Source of the DNA: Acropora yongei
Lineage: Eukaryota > Cnidaria > Anthozoa > Scleractinia > Acroporidae
Direction: 5' to 3'
NCBI GenBank assembly: GCA_014634225.1
Contig: BLFN01000010.1
Span: 722,507-756,900 of the forward strand
Length of the DNA stretch: 34,394 nt
The translations under genes were made by a program, and so were the position numbers. A model generated the notes under the pieces. The model made no database searches. It had not been told where the DNA came from and was given only the letters and a program-made list of their open reading frames with translations. Below are positions 4,801 to 20,366 of the stretch, piece by piece. The number at the start of each line of letters is the position of its first letter. Position 1 is the stretch's first letter.

Positions 4801-5205
4801 GTTTTTAACAATTAACTGAAGACTTTTTAACAATCTAGATCTGGAACTGATCGGATTTCCGCTGGATAGATGAAGTTGAAGGAATAATCTTTCTTCCAGA
4901 AACTGATGGATGTCTCAGAGATTCCTTACCAGAGTGCTTTCATAGAGCTATTACTACGCTAGCTCACCTTCTCACTAGTACAAAATTTGCAAAGACAACT
5001 TTTATGATTTAAGGGTTAATTTTTCCTGATTGCAAATCTTTTAAATGGCGTTCTTTCTGTAAACTTGACTGTTTTCTCAGTAAAGATGGAAAGTTCCAGA
5101 GTGTCACTTTAATACCCAAATTTCAACAATTGGGGGAAACCTTTGATCAGGATAAGAGGCGTGTTCAGTCGAACGGAAATCTTCCGTTGGTGACCAAGTT
5201 AATCT
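1830..5205. other. Gene-free stretch
   Basis: No supported gene. Open frames at 1994-2269 (+), 2343-2567 (+), 3042-3254 (-) and 3948-4301 (-) carry no recognisable motifs, signal peptides or convincing splice context. A short GC-rich hairpin (GGCGCCA paired with TGGCGCC) sits at 2617-2640, and a TGAT-type microsatellite lies at 3262-3300. Confidence 0.5.
3262..3300. repeat. Imperfect TGAT microsatellite
   Basis: A run of ATTGATTGACTGATTG-type units reads as an imperfect tetranucleotide repeat about 39 bp long. Confidence 0.75.
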
Positions 5206-5309
5206 AACACTTGAAAAAATACCAAAGCACCGGACAGAGTTGGGATGGCTTTCCATTAACACTTGAAAAAATACCAAAGCACCGGACAGAGTTGGGATGG
5301 CTTTCCATT
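5206..5309. repeat. Perfect 52-bp tandem duplication
   Basis: The unit starting AACACTTGAAAAAATACC and ending GGATGGCTTTCCATT occurs twice head to tail, at 5206-5257 and 5258-5309, with no mismatch. Perfect identity amid decayed surroundings suggests a recent event or an assembly artefact. Confidence 0.9.
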
Positions 5310-10980: not shown

Positions 10981-13900
10981 TTTAACAAGATAGAAACGGT
11001 AAAATAAATTATCTTATCCGCGGTTTGGTTTTCTGCACGAGTCGACAAATCTGCTCGACGAATCATCAGTTAACTTGAAAATATCCCTTCGTGTTACTTT
11101 CAATACAATTACTGCGGGTTCCTTGTTGGTAGAGTGTTGAGAATATTTGCCTTCTCGTCCTTGTTTTTTCCAATTCAATTACCTGACACGACGCCAAATG
11201 CGGGTTGAACTTGTTCGTTTTCTAGCTCTACCGCGGGACGACCTTTTTCCGGGTTCTCCAGTTTTCTCTTTTCGGCGAGAAAAACCAAGTTGAACCTTTC
11301 TGGTTTTATTAATTAGATTTGATCTGAAGTCTCTTAATTACTGAAGCACTTGCGTTTGGTTATTTCATCGTGCGATTTAAATTGGCAAGAATACTGACAA
11401 ACATTTACCGAGTGTTTTCATGTAGGCAAGCCTTTGCATAGGTATATTTCTCTCGTCCCTGCCGAGGAACTCTACATCGCAGGTAAAATCTCGCTGCTGT
11501 GAACTCGTCCAACATCCCTCTTACAGTCCCACTAGCAGATTCAAACTATCATGCCAGTCTAGCATTGTATATTAAACGAATCATTGACCGTGGAGATTTC
11601 CAAAGAACAACACAGTTTTATGTTGTAACTGAAAGACGAGTTGAACGAATCCGAGTAAACGAATCCGTCCATGACAGTTTTACTCTCTGTTTTGCTTTTA
11701 TAGAGTCTCTCCATTGGATAGAACTCAGTTTCTATTTAGGTTAAAGAAAGTTGCTCTCGTCTTATTTATTCAGCTTTGTTAAACTGTTCTCTAGTTTGCA
11801 AATAACCAAACAATTTTTCGCCTGAATCGAACGATTACATTATGTAAGGGTCAACGTTTAATGTGGTTCAAGTCAAGTCCTCAAATTAAACCTTGTCAAT
11901 AAATCTTCATTATGGAAGTCGTGAGTGCTTGAAGCAACGAGTCGAATAAACTAAGTAATGCTGAGAATAATAACTGGAGAGAGTGAAAAAAATCGGTTAT
12001 CTACAGCAAAGTGCGGCAGCTGTGACCCAATCAGTGAGGGACAAAGCGTGGTTTCATGTTGAAGATGTGGTGCAAAGATTAAACCAAACCATCTGTCTTC
12101 TTCCGAGAGAAAGAGAGTAAAACATTTGATAATAACAGGAATCATCACTCGATGATGCAGTTCTGATAAACCTTTATTGGAGATATTAGCGAGACACTTT
12201 CAAGTCTGGTGAAAAACACCATTTGAGGGCGAAGGATGTTACATGTACAACACAAACCCACCCGCTTGCGATTGACTCTGATTTCCTCTATACCTTGCCA
12301 GGTTGGGTTTCTCAGTCGGTCCACACTATTGCGTTGATTTCTCTGTTGAGTCGCCTCGAGCTTTAAATATCATCACGTATAAAGAAAGGTTAACTTACTT
12401 TTTAAGGTTAAAAAAGAGAAGAATTCCACGCTGAACTGTCAATTAAAGGAATAACGATCGATCAAGCATAGAGGACGGTGCTATGAATTCAATATCGGGA
12501 GCATGCATCGAAAACTGGATACTTTGAAAAGAGATATTTATTGTTTGAAGTTATTCTAGACATAACTTCCACTATTATTTTAGTTAAAGCCTGAATAGGG
12601 CTTAAATCCCTTCCTTTCAACTACTAATGCGAAGAGACAGAGTTTCAAGATATGGTTAGGAATAAATTTGCTGTGTGAAATTCAATTCTTGCTCGAGATA
12701 AGGCGTGCGCTTTCCATTAAAAACTCACTGACTGACCTAGATGATCTGGAGAACAGTTTAACCTAAAAACACTCGAAACCATGCGAACAATTTCAATGAT
12801 ACGACCACAGTTTTCAAAGGTTTTATTGATTCACTGAATACGGGAACAAAGTAGGAGAGGCTGTTTTAATATCCTCTTTCAGTGGATGGAAGACTGTTTC
12901 AACATTTCGCCTACAAAATCTCAATTGAAAGATTTACAGCCAGGACTGAGAAGTTGTCTGACGTTTTCGAATGAGTTGTCATAGTGTTCCTCTAAATAAG
13001 GTCTGCTGACGTTCTTGAAGAAGTTTAAAAATAATTTGATATCAATTGCTTGAAAAGTAACTTACAATTATCAGTTTCTGAAGGGAAGATTTTATTCCAC
13101 ATCCTAAAAGAACACTATTACTTTAGAAATGGATAAGAGCAAACCGATGTAGCTGACACGGCTAACTCACTTAAAACAGTCTTTATCCATTCTTAGAAAC
13201 TTTGAAATTTATCTTTGAGGTTTTTAATGGAGTTTGTTAGTCAATTGTCGCTGTTTGTGGCTTAAAGGACTTAAAGGAAAGCCATGCACGTGATTACATA
13301 ATAAAATGACTGCAATCTTATCAGTTACATACGAGTCTTTTTTTACTTAAGCCACTAACATTTCGGACAGTTGGAGCCTTACACTTTAAACCTCTTTATT
13401 TTTTTCGCAAAACAGACTAATATGCCAAGGTCTGGCCTGAATACATCCACTTAGTCGCGCCATCTTGTTTCGGGTTGCATTTGCAGTCACCAAGTGTTAA
13501 TCAGTTAGACTAAAACTTATGATCCAATGACGTTGCAAAGATCACGATTTTTATAAACAAAAAAAATTAGAAATTGAACTTTCCTCACGTTGTTGTTCAG
13601 CATAAAAAAGTGTCCATAACTCTGTTCCGTGTTTTACTTCTTACTCTAGGACTTCGATTAACGACGTAAAATCCAGTGCATTTTCCAAAGATTTCAACAG
13701 TGGAATGCTCTGGTCAACCTCTATAACCCAAAGTCCCGATTATTACTTGTTGATTTCCTGTTTTTTTCATTTATCTTTTTTTTTTAGAAGGTTTTAAGAC
13801 CTGGAACCTAAGCTTCATTTCAGGGCGTGACTAACCGTGACACACTGCGGTATGTTGTCTGGAAGAAGTTAAACACTGTCAGCAGCAGACATGTTTTAAC

Positions 13901-15700
13901 ATAGCCACGCTAAGAAGGTGAATTGTCCCTTTTTCAGCGACGAGGTTAAGCTGGCGAGAAAATAACAACGACCTCGTTCAAGAAAAAATGTGCTCGCTTA
14001 AAAATACACCGAATTGAGAGCTAGGGTGTTTTGGTGTCACGGTGGCTGAGTTCACGCCACGCTGATCGTTAGACCTTTCACAGCGTACTAATTGAGAAAA
14101 TGGCTGTTAGTTTTCTCGTCGTAACAGCTCGGCTGACCAAGTAGGTTAGAGATCCGTCGATTTTGATACCTGAGGGTGTTGTTTCAAAATCTGCACAGGG
14201 TTCTGCAGAAATAACTGAGGGAGCGATACGTACAATCACTTCACACTCTAGTTTTCTCGGATGAGGACCATATGCCGGCTATTATCTCACATCACTAGTT
14301 TATGAAGTTTATTTCGTTTAAAAGCCTTTCGCCTCCTCAAAATCGAAGGAGACGGACTTAAAGTTCTCGGTGTTGCGGTGCAACTAGGTACTGTTTGTAG
14401 CACTTCTTGTGGCGTTAGCTAAGTATACAAGGAAAGGCTAAATGGAATGATGTAATCAAAGATGAAGCGCGCATCATAAATTGATGCTTATCACCGGATG
14501 CACTGCTCGGAAAGGGAAATTGTAGCAAATTTCCGACACAAATAAAAGAACAGGAATTGATCTGACATCGCAAATTGTACAACTAATGGCTAAAAGAAAA
14601 TTTACTTATTGAAATATAGATCTGAATGGAATAATCTAGTAACAATCTACAAAACTATCTCGCAGCTGAGTCTATGGATAGCTTCGGTCTTGGGGTGGAA
14701 TGGATCTCAAATTCGTGAACTGCTGAAGCGAGTATGCGTTAGTCAACATTAAACAATGTTTAAACGTTCACTCGTTTACCACAAGGCGAAAAAATAAAAA
14801 AAAGAATATCTTTACGAGTTCAACACAAGTTTTCCACTTCTCCTTTCTCCTAAAAAACACTGGATTGGCTAATCTTGACTGAGCATGAGTCGTTGGGCGA
14901 GAAGCAATCCCTTGAAGGTTCCTCTGTTTACTCTAATTTAATAATTTAATTGATAATCTATTTAATTTCTTATTTTTGTTTGCTTGCTGAAGTCACATAA
15001 TTTATAAAGGAAGTTGTAAATTGGAACGCATATAAGTAAGCATATTTTAATTAATGCCCTGCACGCGAAGCTAAAGTGCTTCACTTACAACTGATCGACG
15101 TTTAGTTTGGTTTAGTTTGCTAAACACTTGACAAAATAACTCAGTCAGGCTTTCATGAAGTTGCATGACAAAACTGACTAAATCGAACGATCTCTAGTGC
15201 TGTATCCCTTTTCGGGACACCAGAATTTTTTGCCCCAAGGGGTGCAAAGGGGATATCAAAGAAAAATTAGAGATTATTTGTTGTTTTTTTTCCACGATTA
15301 TTTCGTGCAAGGGCAAAAGGCTTACGTTTATCCCTTTTAATCAAGAAAAAATATTATCTACGGACTTTAATTTGCGCCCTGGACTTATCAAAAACACTGC
15401 TCTGTCTCGGCCTTTCACAGTTTTAATCACCTCGTATTGAAAATGTTTGACGAGCGTAACTCAAAAACTTCAACTGAAAAATTGTAGTTTCTGCCACAAA
15501 AAAGACTTACATCGCTAACATTTAATTTCGTGTTAAGCATGTTGCCTTATTCGAGTGCAATTAAAAGACAGTTCCGGCAATTAATTCCTTGAGCAAACAC
15601 GAGTTATAACGCTCAGAAACACGCTAAAAGCTATTTATGTTCACGCAAATTTCATACCTCTCAAGCAGGCGGTATATGATCTTAAAGTGCTAGAACGGAT
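10981..15700. other. Gene-free stretch
   Basis: I see no supported gene, tRNA or large repeat. The open frames at 11499-11744 (+) and 11951-12148 (-) are short and motif-free. A GCAG|GTAAAA donor-like site at 11480-11485 has no convincing exon attached. The interval is the 5' flank of the peptide gene and may hold distal control elements that I cannot identify by eye. Confidence 0.45.
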
Positions 15701-15710
15701 CACTGTCCAG

Positions 15711-15725
15711 CTTATCTTTCCGGAA
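15711..15725. promoter_or_regulatory. GATA-type and ETS-type sites upstream of the TATA box
   Basis: CTTATCT (reverse complement AGATAAG, a GATA-factor consensus) at 15711-15717 is followed at once by the palindrome TTCCGGAA (ETS core) at 15718-15725. They lie about 45-55 bp upstream of the TATA box. Motif matches this short can arise by chance; their position beside a promoter is the reason to note them. Confidence 0.3.
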
Positions 15726-15766
15726 ATCATGTGCCAAGAGAGCCGGAGCCCTGCTGCATACATGAC

Positions 15767-15774
15767 TATAAAAA
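15767..15774 (+). promoter_or_regulatory. TATA box of the peptide gene
   Basis: TATAAAAA in the context GACTATAAAAAGGCAG is a strong TATA match set in GC-rich flanks. A start about 30 bp downstream would fall near 15797, giving a short first exon that ends at the donor at 15855. The link to the peptide gene is inferred from order, strand and the ATG-adjacent acceptor at 18372. Confidence 0.5.
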
Positions 15775-15796
15775 GGCAGAGGCCCGGCTGCCATGC

Positions 15797-15854
15797 ACAG
15801 GACGTTTCCAACCAGAGTGCGAGCAAGCAGGAGAGACCGGCGATATACTTAAAG
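15797..15854 (+). other. Putative noncoding first exon of the peptide gene
   Basis: This segment runs from the expected start point of the TATA box to a near-consensus donor, CTTAAAG|GTAAGA (GT at 15855-15856). It contains no ATG, as expected for a 5' untranslated leader. Joined to the acceptor at 18371-18372 it would place the leader directly against the start codon. The transcription start is estimated, and other upstream exons cannot be excluded. Confidence 0.45.
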
Positions 15855-16854
15855 GTAAGATTGAAATTATCACTAATCATCTAAAAACACGAAAACCTTT
15901 AAGGTTAGTTTCAAATTTAAATGAAACGGCTTGTTTTGTTTTGTTTTTCTTTTTTGATGTAGTTCTATAGTTTCGTTTCAATGATTGTGAGCAAAATTGA
16001 CATTTTTCGTTTTAAAAATTAGGCTAAAGAGGCGTGACCAAATTTTGCTCGTGGATTTTAACTTGAGTACAAGTTTCCTTACATAATTTGAATTCGATCA
16101 TTTTCAAACTGGAGCCCTCTGTGAGGCTCGTTCTTTTCTGTGCGGATTAAGGCGAAATCTCAGCCTTTTTATCGAGTGGTATCTTACCCGACCTAACCCC
16201 AGAGAAGACACAGCAATAAAATTCTTTCTCCATTCTAATTGGCTTATCCTAATAGGCACTTCTCATCGGATCGCTAACCGTTTGCGAACGTTCGGCGCCT
16301 TAAGACATTCGTTCCATAATTTAGCTGAAATAAATTTTGCTTGGAATTTTAGCAACAATTTCCGAAAATGTTTGGACATTCCAGTGAGGAAAATAGAAAA
16401 TGCGATGCATCAACAAATTGTTTTTTACTGGCACTTTAAAATCATAACGACCCCCTTCAAAGAGGAAATATTTGCTCCCTTTATTTTTCACGCTGTTACT
16501 TGTGAAACGGTTATATATGATCTCGAAGCGGAATTCATAAACTGTGTTAAGAAGTGAAAAAGACGAGAAGTATTGGAAATGTGATGCTGGCAATGTGGAA
16601 AAGGGCTGAATGTGCTAATTTATCATAGCTGGGCAGATTTCATCAGTTCCACTTGAACTCTTGGTGATCTTTCAAGCAACAATTTGATACAGTGAATGAC
16701 AAATTATGCAACATAGCCATAACACATGTAGTACTTTGCTCTCTTTGGTGAAAAATCGTGCTGCCTGCCAGAACACGGGCAAAAGTGATTGTCACGTCCA
16801 ACCGCAGAACCCTGGGGTATTGACGGGAAACGTAACGTAAAATTCTGAAAATGA

Positions 16855-16862
16855 TGACGTCA
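16855..16862. promoter_or_regulatory. Full CRE palindrome TGACGTCA
   Basis: A perfect 8-bp CREB/ATF site in the putative first intron of the peptide gene. CRE sites are common in control regions of neuropeptide genes in other animals; function here is inference. Confidence 0.35.
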
Positions 16863-17340
16863 TTTCTTTGGAATTCATTCCTGCAACTCCTCTATCAACG
16901 TTAGTTAACTCCCCATACAGGCTTAACATCCTAAAAAGAGTATATTTTGCCCTCTTTTCCATTATTTACAATGTAAAAAAAGGCTTAAGGCCTTAATAGG
17001 TTTGTTTGTTCACGGTGAAGAAAAAAGGAAAAAAAAAGAAAAGTGTTCTTTTTGAGAGGATATCTTCGTTGCTATTATTGCTGACTCTCTTTGCATAACG
17101 CTATCACGGGCAAGATTTCACATTCAGCTCTTAAAGGCGCGGAGCTTCTCTCTTCAATTTTGCATTAATTTCATATAGCAATCCGGCGACGTGAGACGTA
17201 TCTTTACCTCAAAGCAATTCTTTCTTGCGAACTGTACTGTTCTTGCAAAGACTTAAATGGATTAATTCAACTACTTCAAACACATGAAAAGACTCATTTT
17301 CCTCTCGGGGCATTTGTGTGTGCGTTCTTGTATTTTAACC

Positions 17341-17800
17341 CGTGCTACTCGACGTTATGTATGTCAGTGACATGCATTCCTTAGCTCTCGCAGTGCTCGC
17401 AAATTACTCGTGTGTTCTGTTGCTCCAGTCATGCACTATGGTGGTATTTGTATCAACCACGCCGATCCTTTGTTCGATCGTTCAAGCTGCGGCTCGTATG
17501 TACTCGTACGTTTTCGCGTACGACTCGTGTGCTCCCGTATGCCACTCGTAAGTTCACCTTGGTGCTCGTATGCCACCAGCAAATGCTTGTAAAGTTCTCG
17601 TAAATAACTCGTTTTTCTTTCGTATGCTATTGAGTATAAGTGTGTAAACGAAATATATTTACTGTTTACGTTCTCGTAGGTCCACTGTTCTTCCGTGTAC
17701 TACTCGTGAATTACTCGTGCTCGTGTATCAACGAGATGTATTCTACGTACTCGTGTGTTCTCGTAAATAATTCGTAACTATTGGTGTTTGCTCCTCGTGC
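17341..17800. repeat. CTCGT-rich degenerate minisatellite
   Basis: CTCGT occurs about 15 times in roughly 400 bp on the + strand, mostly as TACTCGTG, GCTCGTATG or TTCTCGTAAAT, at irregular spacing that often falls between 10 and 30 bp. No such density is seen elsewhere in the window. The open frames over it (17342-17603) owe their openness to this repeat. Confidence 0.7.
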
Positions 17801-18372
17801 GTTTTTCCATACCAATCGTTTGTCCCGAAGCTGTAAATATATGCTAAATATTCAACATCAGCCAGTCGGCTGGGCATTGAGTGTGGAAATGACCACTCGC
17901 CGGCGGCCTCTGGGCTCAGTTTTGGTACTCAGTTGGGTTTAACAATCCTTTACTTTGCCCCGGTAAAGTGGTTAGCCTTCGAGTACTACGGTTTTCACGT
18001 CCCACACATAAAAAATAAAACATGTTTCATGAAATCAACCATATTTGTTGTCTACAAGGTCTCAATTAAAAGTGCGCCGGTACTGGGTAAATGTCGACAC
18101 TAAGTGTTTTTCATGATAATAATCTCCTCCTGTTTAAAGAGTCTCGAGTTAATACGGAAGTGAAAAGGTAATAAGCTAAGTAGGTGTCACTTATGTGTCA
18201 AAGATGGCATCACCGATCTCAATTCTGACAATCACGTGTTGAATCACAAACCGTGCGGAAGACGAATGTCACTTTACACGTCATTGAAGAAAAGACGCGG
18301 AAGAAACGACTTACCTTTTTACATTTTATTGATTAATAGATCTTACATTCTTGTCTTCTCTTTATCGAACAG

Positions 18373-18861
18373 ATGAAGCTGTTACACTTGACTTCGGCTA
18401 TCGCCATTTTAGTGGTGCTTGCAATTACTTTGGTCAATAGCAGTCCATTACAAAGACTCAAGCGAGCTCTAGAATCTCAAAAGAATCTACAAGACGAAGA
18501 CAGAATGTCGAGTTATACTCAGAAGAGAGTAGCTCCCGAACAGTCAACAGGAATCAAGAGCATGGAGGGCAAACATAAATGCTTGCCAGGGTTGTGGACA
18601 TGTCTCCATTCCAACCCAATGGCGTCAGAAAACACGGAGCTCAGCTACGACAAGGATCAGGCCTCGTCAGGGGAAGGTCTCCTTCAAGGACCAAGAGACA
18701 AACGAAGCCCTCTCACAGAAAGTGATATTGAAGAAAACAACAACGCTGAGTTGACCAAACAAAGTGGTAATAGATGCCCTCCCGGAATCTGGGTTTGTGG
18801 CAAGAAAAAGCGTTTAGACTTGAACAAAAAGTTTAGGCGAGCGTTAAAAAGATTTTACTGA
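18373..18861 (+). CDS. Secreted neuropeptide-like precursor with two cyclic PG(L/I)W peptides
   Basis: The product is a 162-residue prepropeptide. Residues 1-23 form a signal peptide (hydrophobic core AIAILVVLAITLV, likely cut after VNS). Dibasic cleavage sites lie at 30-31, 51-52, 110-111, 144-147, 152-153, 155-156 and 159-160. Two units share Cys-x-Pro-Gly-(Leu/Ile)-Trp-x-Cys: Cys70-Cys77 (CLPGLWTC) and Cys135-Cys142 (CPPGIWVC). These are the only four cysteines, so each unit probably closes its own disulfide ring. The second is followed by Gly143 and Lys-Lys-Lys-Arg, which predicts a C-terminal amide; the first lacks that Gly. Acidic spacers between units are typical of neuropeptide precursors. 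The ATG directly follows a strong splice acceptor (TTTATCGAACAG). The core resembles the PGLW of cnidarian GLWamides, but those are linear and end at the Trp. A secreted peptide of another class (defence or venom-like) is the main alternative. Confidence 0.85.
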   Translation: MKLLHLTSAIAILVVLAITLVNSSPLQRLKRALESQKNLQDEDRMSSYTQKRVAPEQSTGIKSMEGKHKCLPGLWTCLHSNPMASENTELSYDKDQASSGEGLLQGPRDKRSPLTESDIEENNNAELTKQSGNRCPPGIWVCGKKKRLDLNKKFRRALKRFY

Positions 18862-19162: not shown

Positions 19163-19168
19163 AATAAA
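19163..19168 (+). terminator. Poly(A) signal of the peptide gene
   Basis: AATAAA lies about 300 bp after the stop codon, followed by T/GT-rich sequence. It is the first canonical signal downstream of the coding region and would give a 3' UTR of roughly 320-340 nt. Confidence 0.65.
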
Positions 19169-19295: not shown

Positions 19296-19597
19296 TTTAT
19301 GTTTCGGGTAACAACGGGGTCGCCAGTGCGGGTGATATCGAAACCTCATTTCCAGACTTTCTCGACCTCAAGACGAGGTATTCGATATTCTCAAGTATGA
19401 TATCAACAACCAGGAAGAGAAGACAGAAGAGAGAAAAGGCGAGAAAGAGACCGCAGAGTTCTCAACCACCCTGGCCTAACGGGTGTCGTCCATGTTTGTC
19501 TAAAACTCATGCAATCCCCTTTAAAATAAAATCTATACTCGCCTTTTTCAATGAAAAAGACGCGAATAAAAAAAGTCAAATAAAAGCACTCGGATGA
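19296..19597 (+). CDS. Orphan exon-like ORF with basic cluster and Cys pair
   Basis: A good acceptor (CATTTCCTTTACCGTCACACAG, ending 19295) leads into a frame that stays open for about 100 codons to TGA at 19597. It begins VYVSGNNGVASAGDIETSF, the V being the codon split across the acceptor. A dense basic block, RKRRQKREKARKR, follows, then QPPWPNGCRPCLSK with a Cys-x2-Cys pair. An acidic lead, basic cleavage-like block and short Cys segment look like the end of a secreted precursor, but there is no signal peptide here and I recognise no family. It starts about 130 bp after the peptide gene's poly(A) signal. It could be a terminal exon of a neighbouring gene, an alternative exon or chance. 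The end of the frame (Lys- and Ile-rich) looks less protein-like. Confidence 0.3.
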
Positions 19598-19753: not shown

Positions 19754-19826
19754 TCAACCTCGTTCCCAGGGTCTCTCTTCTTCCCTCCAAGGAAGGGAAG
19801 AAGAGAGACCCTGGGAACGAGGTTGA
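19754..19826. repeat. Perfect 33-bp stem hairpin
   Basis: 19754-19786 is the exact reverse complement of 19794-19826, separated by a 7-base loop (CCAAGGA). The arm contains CTCGTTCCCAGGGTCTCTC. The symmetry fades just outside the arms. It is probably a tiny foldback element or the fused ends of a DNA transposon. Confidence 0.9.
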
Positions 19827-20366
19827 GTTCACTTACTGATGATCATAAAGACATCAGCAAGACTAAATCAATAGCCAGTTACCTAACATATGCCGGCACC
19901 AGACGAGAATGGAAATAACACAGTATAAAATCGAGATCCTTGAGAACGTATCGATGATATCTGACAAGTCACGGTTGGCAAACTGAAGCACTCAAATCCG
20001 AAATGACTTCAGTGGTCGAGTTGTTCAAAGCAAACTCCAACGAAAGATTCATTTCAGAGGACGAAGAGAGACTGGGATCTGGAAATCATGTCCAAATTCA
20101 TACTGAATTTCGATATTAAGTCTGAGGCTTTGCCTAAACCATATAGTTACAATTTAGGGCTTGTTTTTTTACCTTACGATCACGATTAGAGTTAAGAGTA
20201 AACCATGAAAACTGGACGAAATCATCTGTCAAAGTGACAGACTTTGTTTGTTTCAGCCAATGTATGTCCATCGTTGAAGGTAGGCCTTCGCCACTGACCT
20301 CCACGGGTCCCGCATTTGCACGACACAGTGCCAGTGTTTGTGAAACTGTCCGAGTGGTCCCTCCAT

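Follow-up and report, generated by a model that had tools for sequence, protein, structure and literature searches.

In the 34,394 nucleotides of the stony coral Acropora yongei analysed here (the window), one open reading frame carries two short cysteine-bounded units, CLPGLWTC and CPPGIWVC. The locus raises the question of whether these units are the active parts of a neuropeptide precursor, and whether they represent a new family, as an earlier note on this DNA had proposed.

Architecture of the precursor gene

The precursor was encoded by a single open frame on the forward strand, around which a putative gene model was drawn:

15767..15775, forward strand: TATA-box-like TATAAAAAG, a possible promoter; the sole TATAAAA[AG] in 15001-18400
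15798..15854, forward strand: putative non-coding first exon, ending AAAG/GTAAGA; 5' edge guessed from the TATA spacing
15855..18372, forward strand: putative intron, called on splice-site consensus; a pyrimidine-rich tract and CAG stand directly before the ATG
18373..18861, forward strand: precursor coding sequence, 162 amino acids and stop, identified from the open frame and its homologues (P0001 to P0004)
18373..18444, forward strand: signal-peptide-like N terminus, residues 1-24, called on hydropathy only, with an approximate cleavage point
18580..18603, forward strand: unit 1, CLPGLWTC, residues 70-77, followed by LHSNP, with neither Gly nor an adjoining dibasic site
18700..18705, forward strand: KR dibasic site, residues 110-111, possible N-terminal edge of a longer peptide from Ser112
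18775..18798, forward strand: unit 2, CPPGIWVC, residues 135-142
18799..18813, forward strand: GKKKR after unit 2, a potential amidation-donor Gly and basic cleavage site
19163..19168, forward strand: possible AATAAA polyadenylation-like signal, about 300 bases past the stop

Cysteine occurred only at residues 70, 77, 135 and 142 of the 162-residue protein, and both pairs had the spacing C-x6-C. All four cysteines lay inside the two units, which confirmed that these are the sole Cys-bearing parts of the precursor, as had been claimed. The N terminus was strongly hydrophobic, with a Kyte-Doolittle peak of 3.29 over an 11-residue span, and seven dibasic stretches were found (residues 30-31, 51-52, 110-111, 144-147, 152-153, 155-156 and 159-160), in agreement with the signal peptide and many dibasic sites described before. 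The Gly-Lys-Lys-Lys-Arg reported after the second unit was also present. The layout of the two units had been called identical; this held for the rings themselves but not for their surroundings, where unit 2 alone carried a Gly-basic site. Residue 112, from which the earlier note had an extended peptide begin, is the first one past the KR at 110-111.

The donor at 15854/15855 was the sole AG/GTAAG or AG/GTGAG in 13373-18372, where weaker GT sites exist, and it lay about 80 bases downstream of the TATA-like site. Further AATAAA sequences were located at 19525, 19565 and 19579. Because of the pyrimidine tract and CAG, the lone donor of this kind near the lone TATA-like site and the AATAAA at 19163, a two-exon gene whose first exon is non-coding and whose second, beyond one intron, holds the entire coding sequence is plausible.

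Other features were observed in the window. Positions 17320-17810, inside the putative intron, were by eye rich in degenerate CTCGTA/CTCGTG-like words, a region that the tandem repeat search did not report. At about 19756-19828, visual inspection showed a near-perfect inverted repeat whose arms, each about 30 bases long, flank CTCGTTCCCAGGGTCTCTCTTCTTCCCTCC; it was unlisted at the 40-base minimum. At 5205-5309, a 52-base sequence was perfectly duplicated in tandem (2.0 copies, 100% match). Positions 28572-29042 on the forward strand contained the 3' portion of a gene for a Ras-family GTPase (Pfam Ras, E 1.5e-31), whose nearest PDB match was the GTP-binding protein Rit1 (E 7.3e-46).

Occurrence of the units beyond chance

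Stop-free stretches of at least 173 codons were present in 30 of 200 Markov-resampled windows, so the length of the precursor frame is no evidence by itself. Residues 25-162 were shuffled 200,000 times. Not one shuffle contained even a single C-x-P-G-[LI]-W-x-C, and only one contained a pair of C-x6-C units sharing three or more inner identities. The DNA pattern for C-x-P-G-[L/I/M/F]-W-x-C matched three times in the 405 Mb genome, twice within the precursor gene, and its reversed control matched once. The third match began a 33-codon open stretch with no precursor around it and was rejected as non-coding. The shuffle test and the conservation of the units in homologues ruled out a chance open reading frame.

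A protein search of the coral's own genome yielded no paralogue, its one match being the precursor gene itself. Among viral contigs, 93 stretches matched a pattern and none encoded a relative, and the plasmid search likewise found none.

Homologues and conservation

A sequence search of about 5.8 billion proteins with E up to 10 gave two hits among 39 candidates, P0001 and P0002. A profile built from these and the window protein gave four hits among 1288 candidates, adding P0003 and P0004. P0001 and P0002 were 91% and 70% identical to the window protein, with E values of 4.8e-92 and 1.5e-61, respectively. P0003 and P0004 were both 34% identical, with E values in the profile search of 9.3e-21 and 1.5e-20, respectively.

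All 28 cysteines of these five proteins sat inside 14 C-x6-C units, and 13 of the 14 fitted C-x-P-G-[LI]-W-x-C, the exception being CPRGIWDC. Each precursor contained two or four units, an arrangement common in neuropeptide precursors; P0003 and P0004 had four each, the last one at the C-terminus of the listed protein. Identity to unit 1 of the window protein was 8/8 in P0001, 7/8 in P0002 and 6/8 in the aligned units of P0003 and P0004. Identity to unit 2 was 8/8 in P0001, P0002 and P0003, and 6/8 in P0004.

The 16 ring residues were compared with the 112 other positions from residue 35 on, using a Fisher test. Ring and other matches were 15/16 and 70/112 in P0002 (p 0.009), 14/16 and 23/112 in P0003 (p 2.8e-7), and 12/16 and 26/112 in P0004 (p 8.1e-5), respectively. 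In these three proteins the rings were kept while the spacers drifted. The earlier note had set beforehand that both units should be kept while the flanks change; this was seen in P0002, P0003 and P0004 but not measurably in P0001, a very close homologue with 16/16 ring and 98/112 other matches (p 0.14). Its reading of the protein as a secreted precursor with several units, the C-x6-C unit being the conserved and presumably active part, was supported. The SPLxRLKRxLE segment after the signal was conserved in all five proteins and the signal part was well kept too, so the rings are not the sole constrained part. K110, R111 and S112 were invariant across the five aligned proteins.

Pfam gave weak and inconsistent matches for the five members, the best being an unrelated receptor model in two of the five (E 0.0014); an Apelin match (E 0.16, below the cut-off) was rejected as noise. 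The best PDB matches had E values of 0.14 and 1.2, and no domain family was assigned.

Processing and the proposed mechanism

Gly followed the last ring in the window protein, P0001 and P0002, i.e., after 3 of the 14 units, and was absent after the other 11, among them all units of P0003 and P0004. The GKKKR sequence was identical at 5/5 positions in P0001 and 4/5 in P0002, and P0003 and P0004 lacked its Gly. The 14 units were of two sorts: in one, -WTC ran on into Leu or Val and a tail; in the other, -WVC or -WDC preceded Gly-basic, basic residues directly, or the protein end. From the occurrence of Gly in three proteins and after the last unit only, the ring appears as the constant part and the amide as the variable one. 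Since Gly varies within the homologous set, neither its presence nor its absence is likely to define the family; the amide may have been gained in one group or lost in others. The amidated product proposed before suits unit 2 of the window protein, with its Gly-basic site, but did not hold as a family trait, and the Nematostella product discussed below is also stated to be without the Gly. The disulfide-closed octapeptide proposed with it is consistent with the two-Cys layout of the units, for which such a ring is predicted.

In passages of a Nematostella mass spectrometry study, some peptides are cut without a basic residue where prolines occupy positions 2 and 3, and an acidic residue often precedes such cuts (PMC11087051, Thiel et al.). 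All ten units starting with CPP fitted the proline part of this rule. Asp stood directly before three of the ten (P0002 unit 2 and P0004 units 1 and 2) and two residues before one more (P0003 unit 1), and window unit 2 was preceded by Asn-Arg; the acidic part thus applied to a minority. Because the residue before window unit 2 is Arg, a single-basic cut there is also possible. The proline fit supports the octapeptide without settling its N terminus, and a longer form from Ser112 is possible. The computed [M+H]+ of amidated oxidised CPPGIWVC was 871.395 and that of the amidated oxidised Ser112 peptide 3398.574, both 2.016 lower than for the reduced peptides.

Judged from its sequence, the gene is likely to encode a preprohormone whose products are small neuropeptides closed by a disulfide and built on the core C-x-P-G-[LI]-W-x-C. 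In peptide layout, the gene is akin to NvLWamide-like (Nv242283) of Nematostella vectensis, which was reportedly described by Havrilak et al. 2017. After removal of the signal peptide, the two Cys of each unit would pair to form an eight-residue ring holding the PG-[LI]-W turn. Unit 2 would be cut C-terminally at GKKKR and its Gly converted to an amide, as the Gly and the basic residues suggest. Its N terminus would probably lie at or near the first Cys, the alternative being the longer form. Unit 1 would bear the same ring, with a C-terminal edge that the sequence leaves undefined. The peptide would be released by neurons or neurosecretory cells and would act on a receptor, probably a GPCR. 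Since Trp is internal and not an amidated end, this is probably not a GLWamide receptor.

Other explanations for the precursor

The peptides could belong, in derived form, to the ordinary GLWamide system and act at GLWamide receptors, with the Cys merely stabilising a GLW-type ligand. The units have the PPG-[LI]-W core in common with coral PPGLWamides (PMC7523074, PMC7287070), and an antibody to GLWamide was absorbed with the NvLWamide-like peptides KECPPGLWGC and KECLPGVWG, which suggests that cross-reaction was thought possible (PMC6152798). However, a residue and Cys follow Trp in every unit, so no Trp-amide can form, and NvLWamide-like itself is predicted in passages of PMC6152798 not to yield GLWamides, the amidation Gly being missing. 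We regard this explanation as unlikely. It is very improbable that the Cys pair between units, forming one folded prohormone domain instead of eight-residue rings. Cys numbers are even (4 or 8 per protein), as such pairing would have it, but between the two to four units lie diverging spacers with basic sites, and the KR at 110-111 between the window units was invariant in 5/5 proteins.

Secreted, Cys-paired layouts rich in basic residues occur among defence peptides. The precursor is predicted to share these traits, and two sub-threshold matches (E 0.075 for a bacteriocin model, E 0.32 for a spider peptide model) were obtained, each in one of the five members and at noise level. That the product is a venom, antimicrobial or other non-neuronal secreted one-disulfide peptide nevertheless seems quite unlikely, as conserved rings in repeated, spaced units together with a Gly-basic site resemble neuropeptide precursors, and the Nematostella gene of matching layout is neuronal, with mRNA and reporter expression in neurons (PMC4968017, PMC8128482). 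A GLWL peptide with receptor R18 (EC50 9E-7) is also described from Nematostella (PMC11087051); it may or may not be NvLWamide-like and was left uncounted as evidence. If both names refer to the same gene, the broad expression given there for GLWL would fit a non-neuronal peptide and count against a purely neuronal role.

Comparison with known systems

Allatostatin C is a bilaterian single-disulfide neuropeptide with a C-x6-C ring in a short secreted peptide. It is an analogy only, drawn on the Cys pair and on no further residues.

The preferred reading, a precursor of disulfide-closed neuropeptides, shares with GLWamides and metamorphosin A (Wamide superfamily) the PPG-[LI]-W core, multi-unit secreted precursors and amidation. 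GLWamides are linear and carry the amide on Trp, whereas Trp is internal in the units described here and any predicted amide would sit on Cys. This contrast, already drawn in the earlier note, was borne out in 14/14 units: a single residue separated Trp from the second Cys, T or V in 13 units and D in the remaining one. With regard to Wamide membership, 13/14 units had the P-G-[LI]-W core within a secreted precursor of several units, the other having PRGIW, and 0/14 had a C-terminal Trp-amide (W, then Gly and basic). Membership of the window gene among the GLWamides was rejected on the internal Trp.

GLWamides are called ubiquitous in hexacorals (PMC7523074). Two patterns for a GLWamide gene (two PGLWG-type units close together; PPGLWG with Arg or Ser behind it) and their reversed controls gave no match in the 405 Mb genome, and the GLWamide units of A. 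yongei may be written differently or missing. In the main text of the same hexacoral survey, the words cyclic, cysteine and disulfide are absent, and its abstract and sections 8 and 9 name no family of this kind (PMC7523074), which suggests that neuropeptide scans based on amidation can miss such precursors.

The closest known system is NvLWamide-like, whose predicted product is QCPPGLWGC (PMC6152798). The two Cys of CPPGLWGC enclose six residues that include PPGLW, which fits C-x-P-G-L-W-x-C, and a second predicted peptide contains CLPGVWG (PMC6152798); two Cys with six residues between, around PG-[LIV]-W, are thus common to the NvLWamide-like peptide and the window units. A query with the published NvLWamide-like peptides matched only P0001, P0002 and P0003 (three hits among five candidates). 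The Nematostella product is stated to be without the amidation Gly; the window protein, P0001 and P0002 carry one behind their final ring, and the other 11 units have none. The two systems differ before the second Cys, where Nematostella has Gly and the 14 units have T, V or D. The passages of PMC6152798 on the Nematostella peptide do not call it a disulfide ring.

In the open-licence PMC literature, the ring strings CPPGLW, PPGLWGC and CLPGVW occurred in PMC6152798 only and CPPGAW only in an unrelated clinical context, while PPGIW, CLPGLW, CAPGLW, CPPGVW, CPPGMW, PGLWTC and PGIWVC were absent as spelled. Passages of PMC9545775, PMC7270403, PMC6756747 and PMC7042181 contained nothing on such rings, and PMC9525235 had no occurrence of the ring text sought. 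The earlier note knew of no described family with this layout, which is not to say that none exists; novelty was not supported, as QCPPGLWGC had already been predicted from NvLWamide-like and fits the very pattern that the note gave (PMC6152798).

NvLWamide-like is a neuronal reporter gene in Nematostella, named by 16 papers in the open-licence PMC literature; in the published passages its product is given as a predicted peptide only, although one of them refers to a check in a figure supplement. The homologous set with its 14 ring units reveals the constrained part and supplies exact peptide masses. If the ring is real, it sets these peptides apart as a family from GLWamides, which are linear, and provides a clean ligand with which orphan receptors can be probed. 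We tentatively propose, at somewhat less than an even chance, an old family of cyclic neuropeptides shared by corals and sea anemones, with a disulfide-locked PPG-[LI]-W turn and its own receptor, which would have evolved beside the linear GLWamides, gained an amide on the ring in one lineage, and been overlooked because scans seek C-terminal amides. In peptide layout the window gene agrees with NvLWamide-like, and its mode of action is probably similar; most likely it extends this little-studied kind of precursor and does not found a new one.
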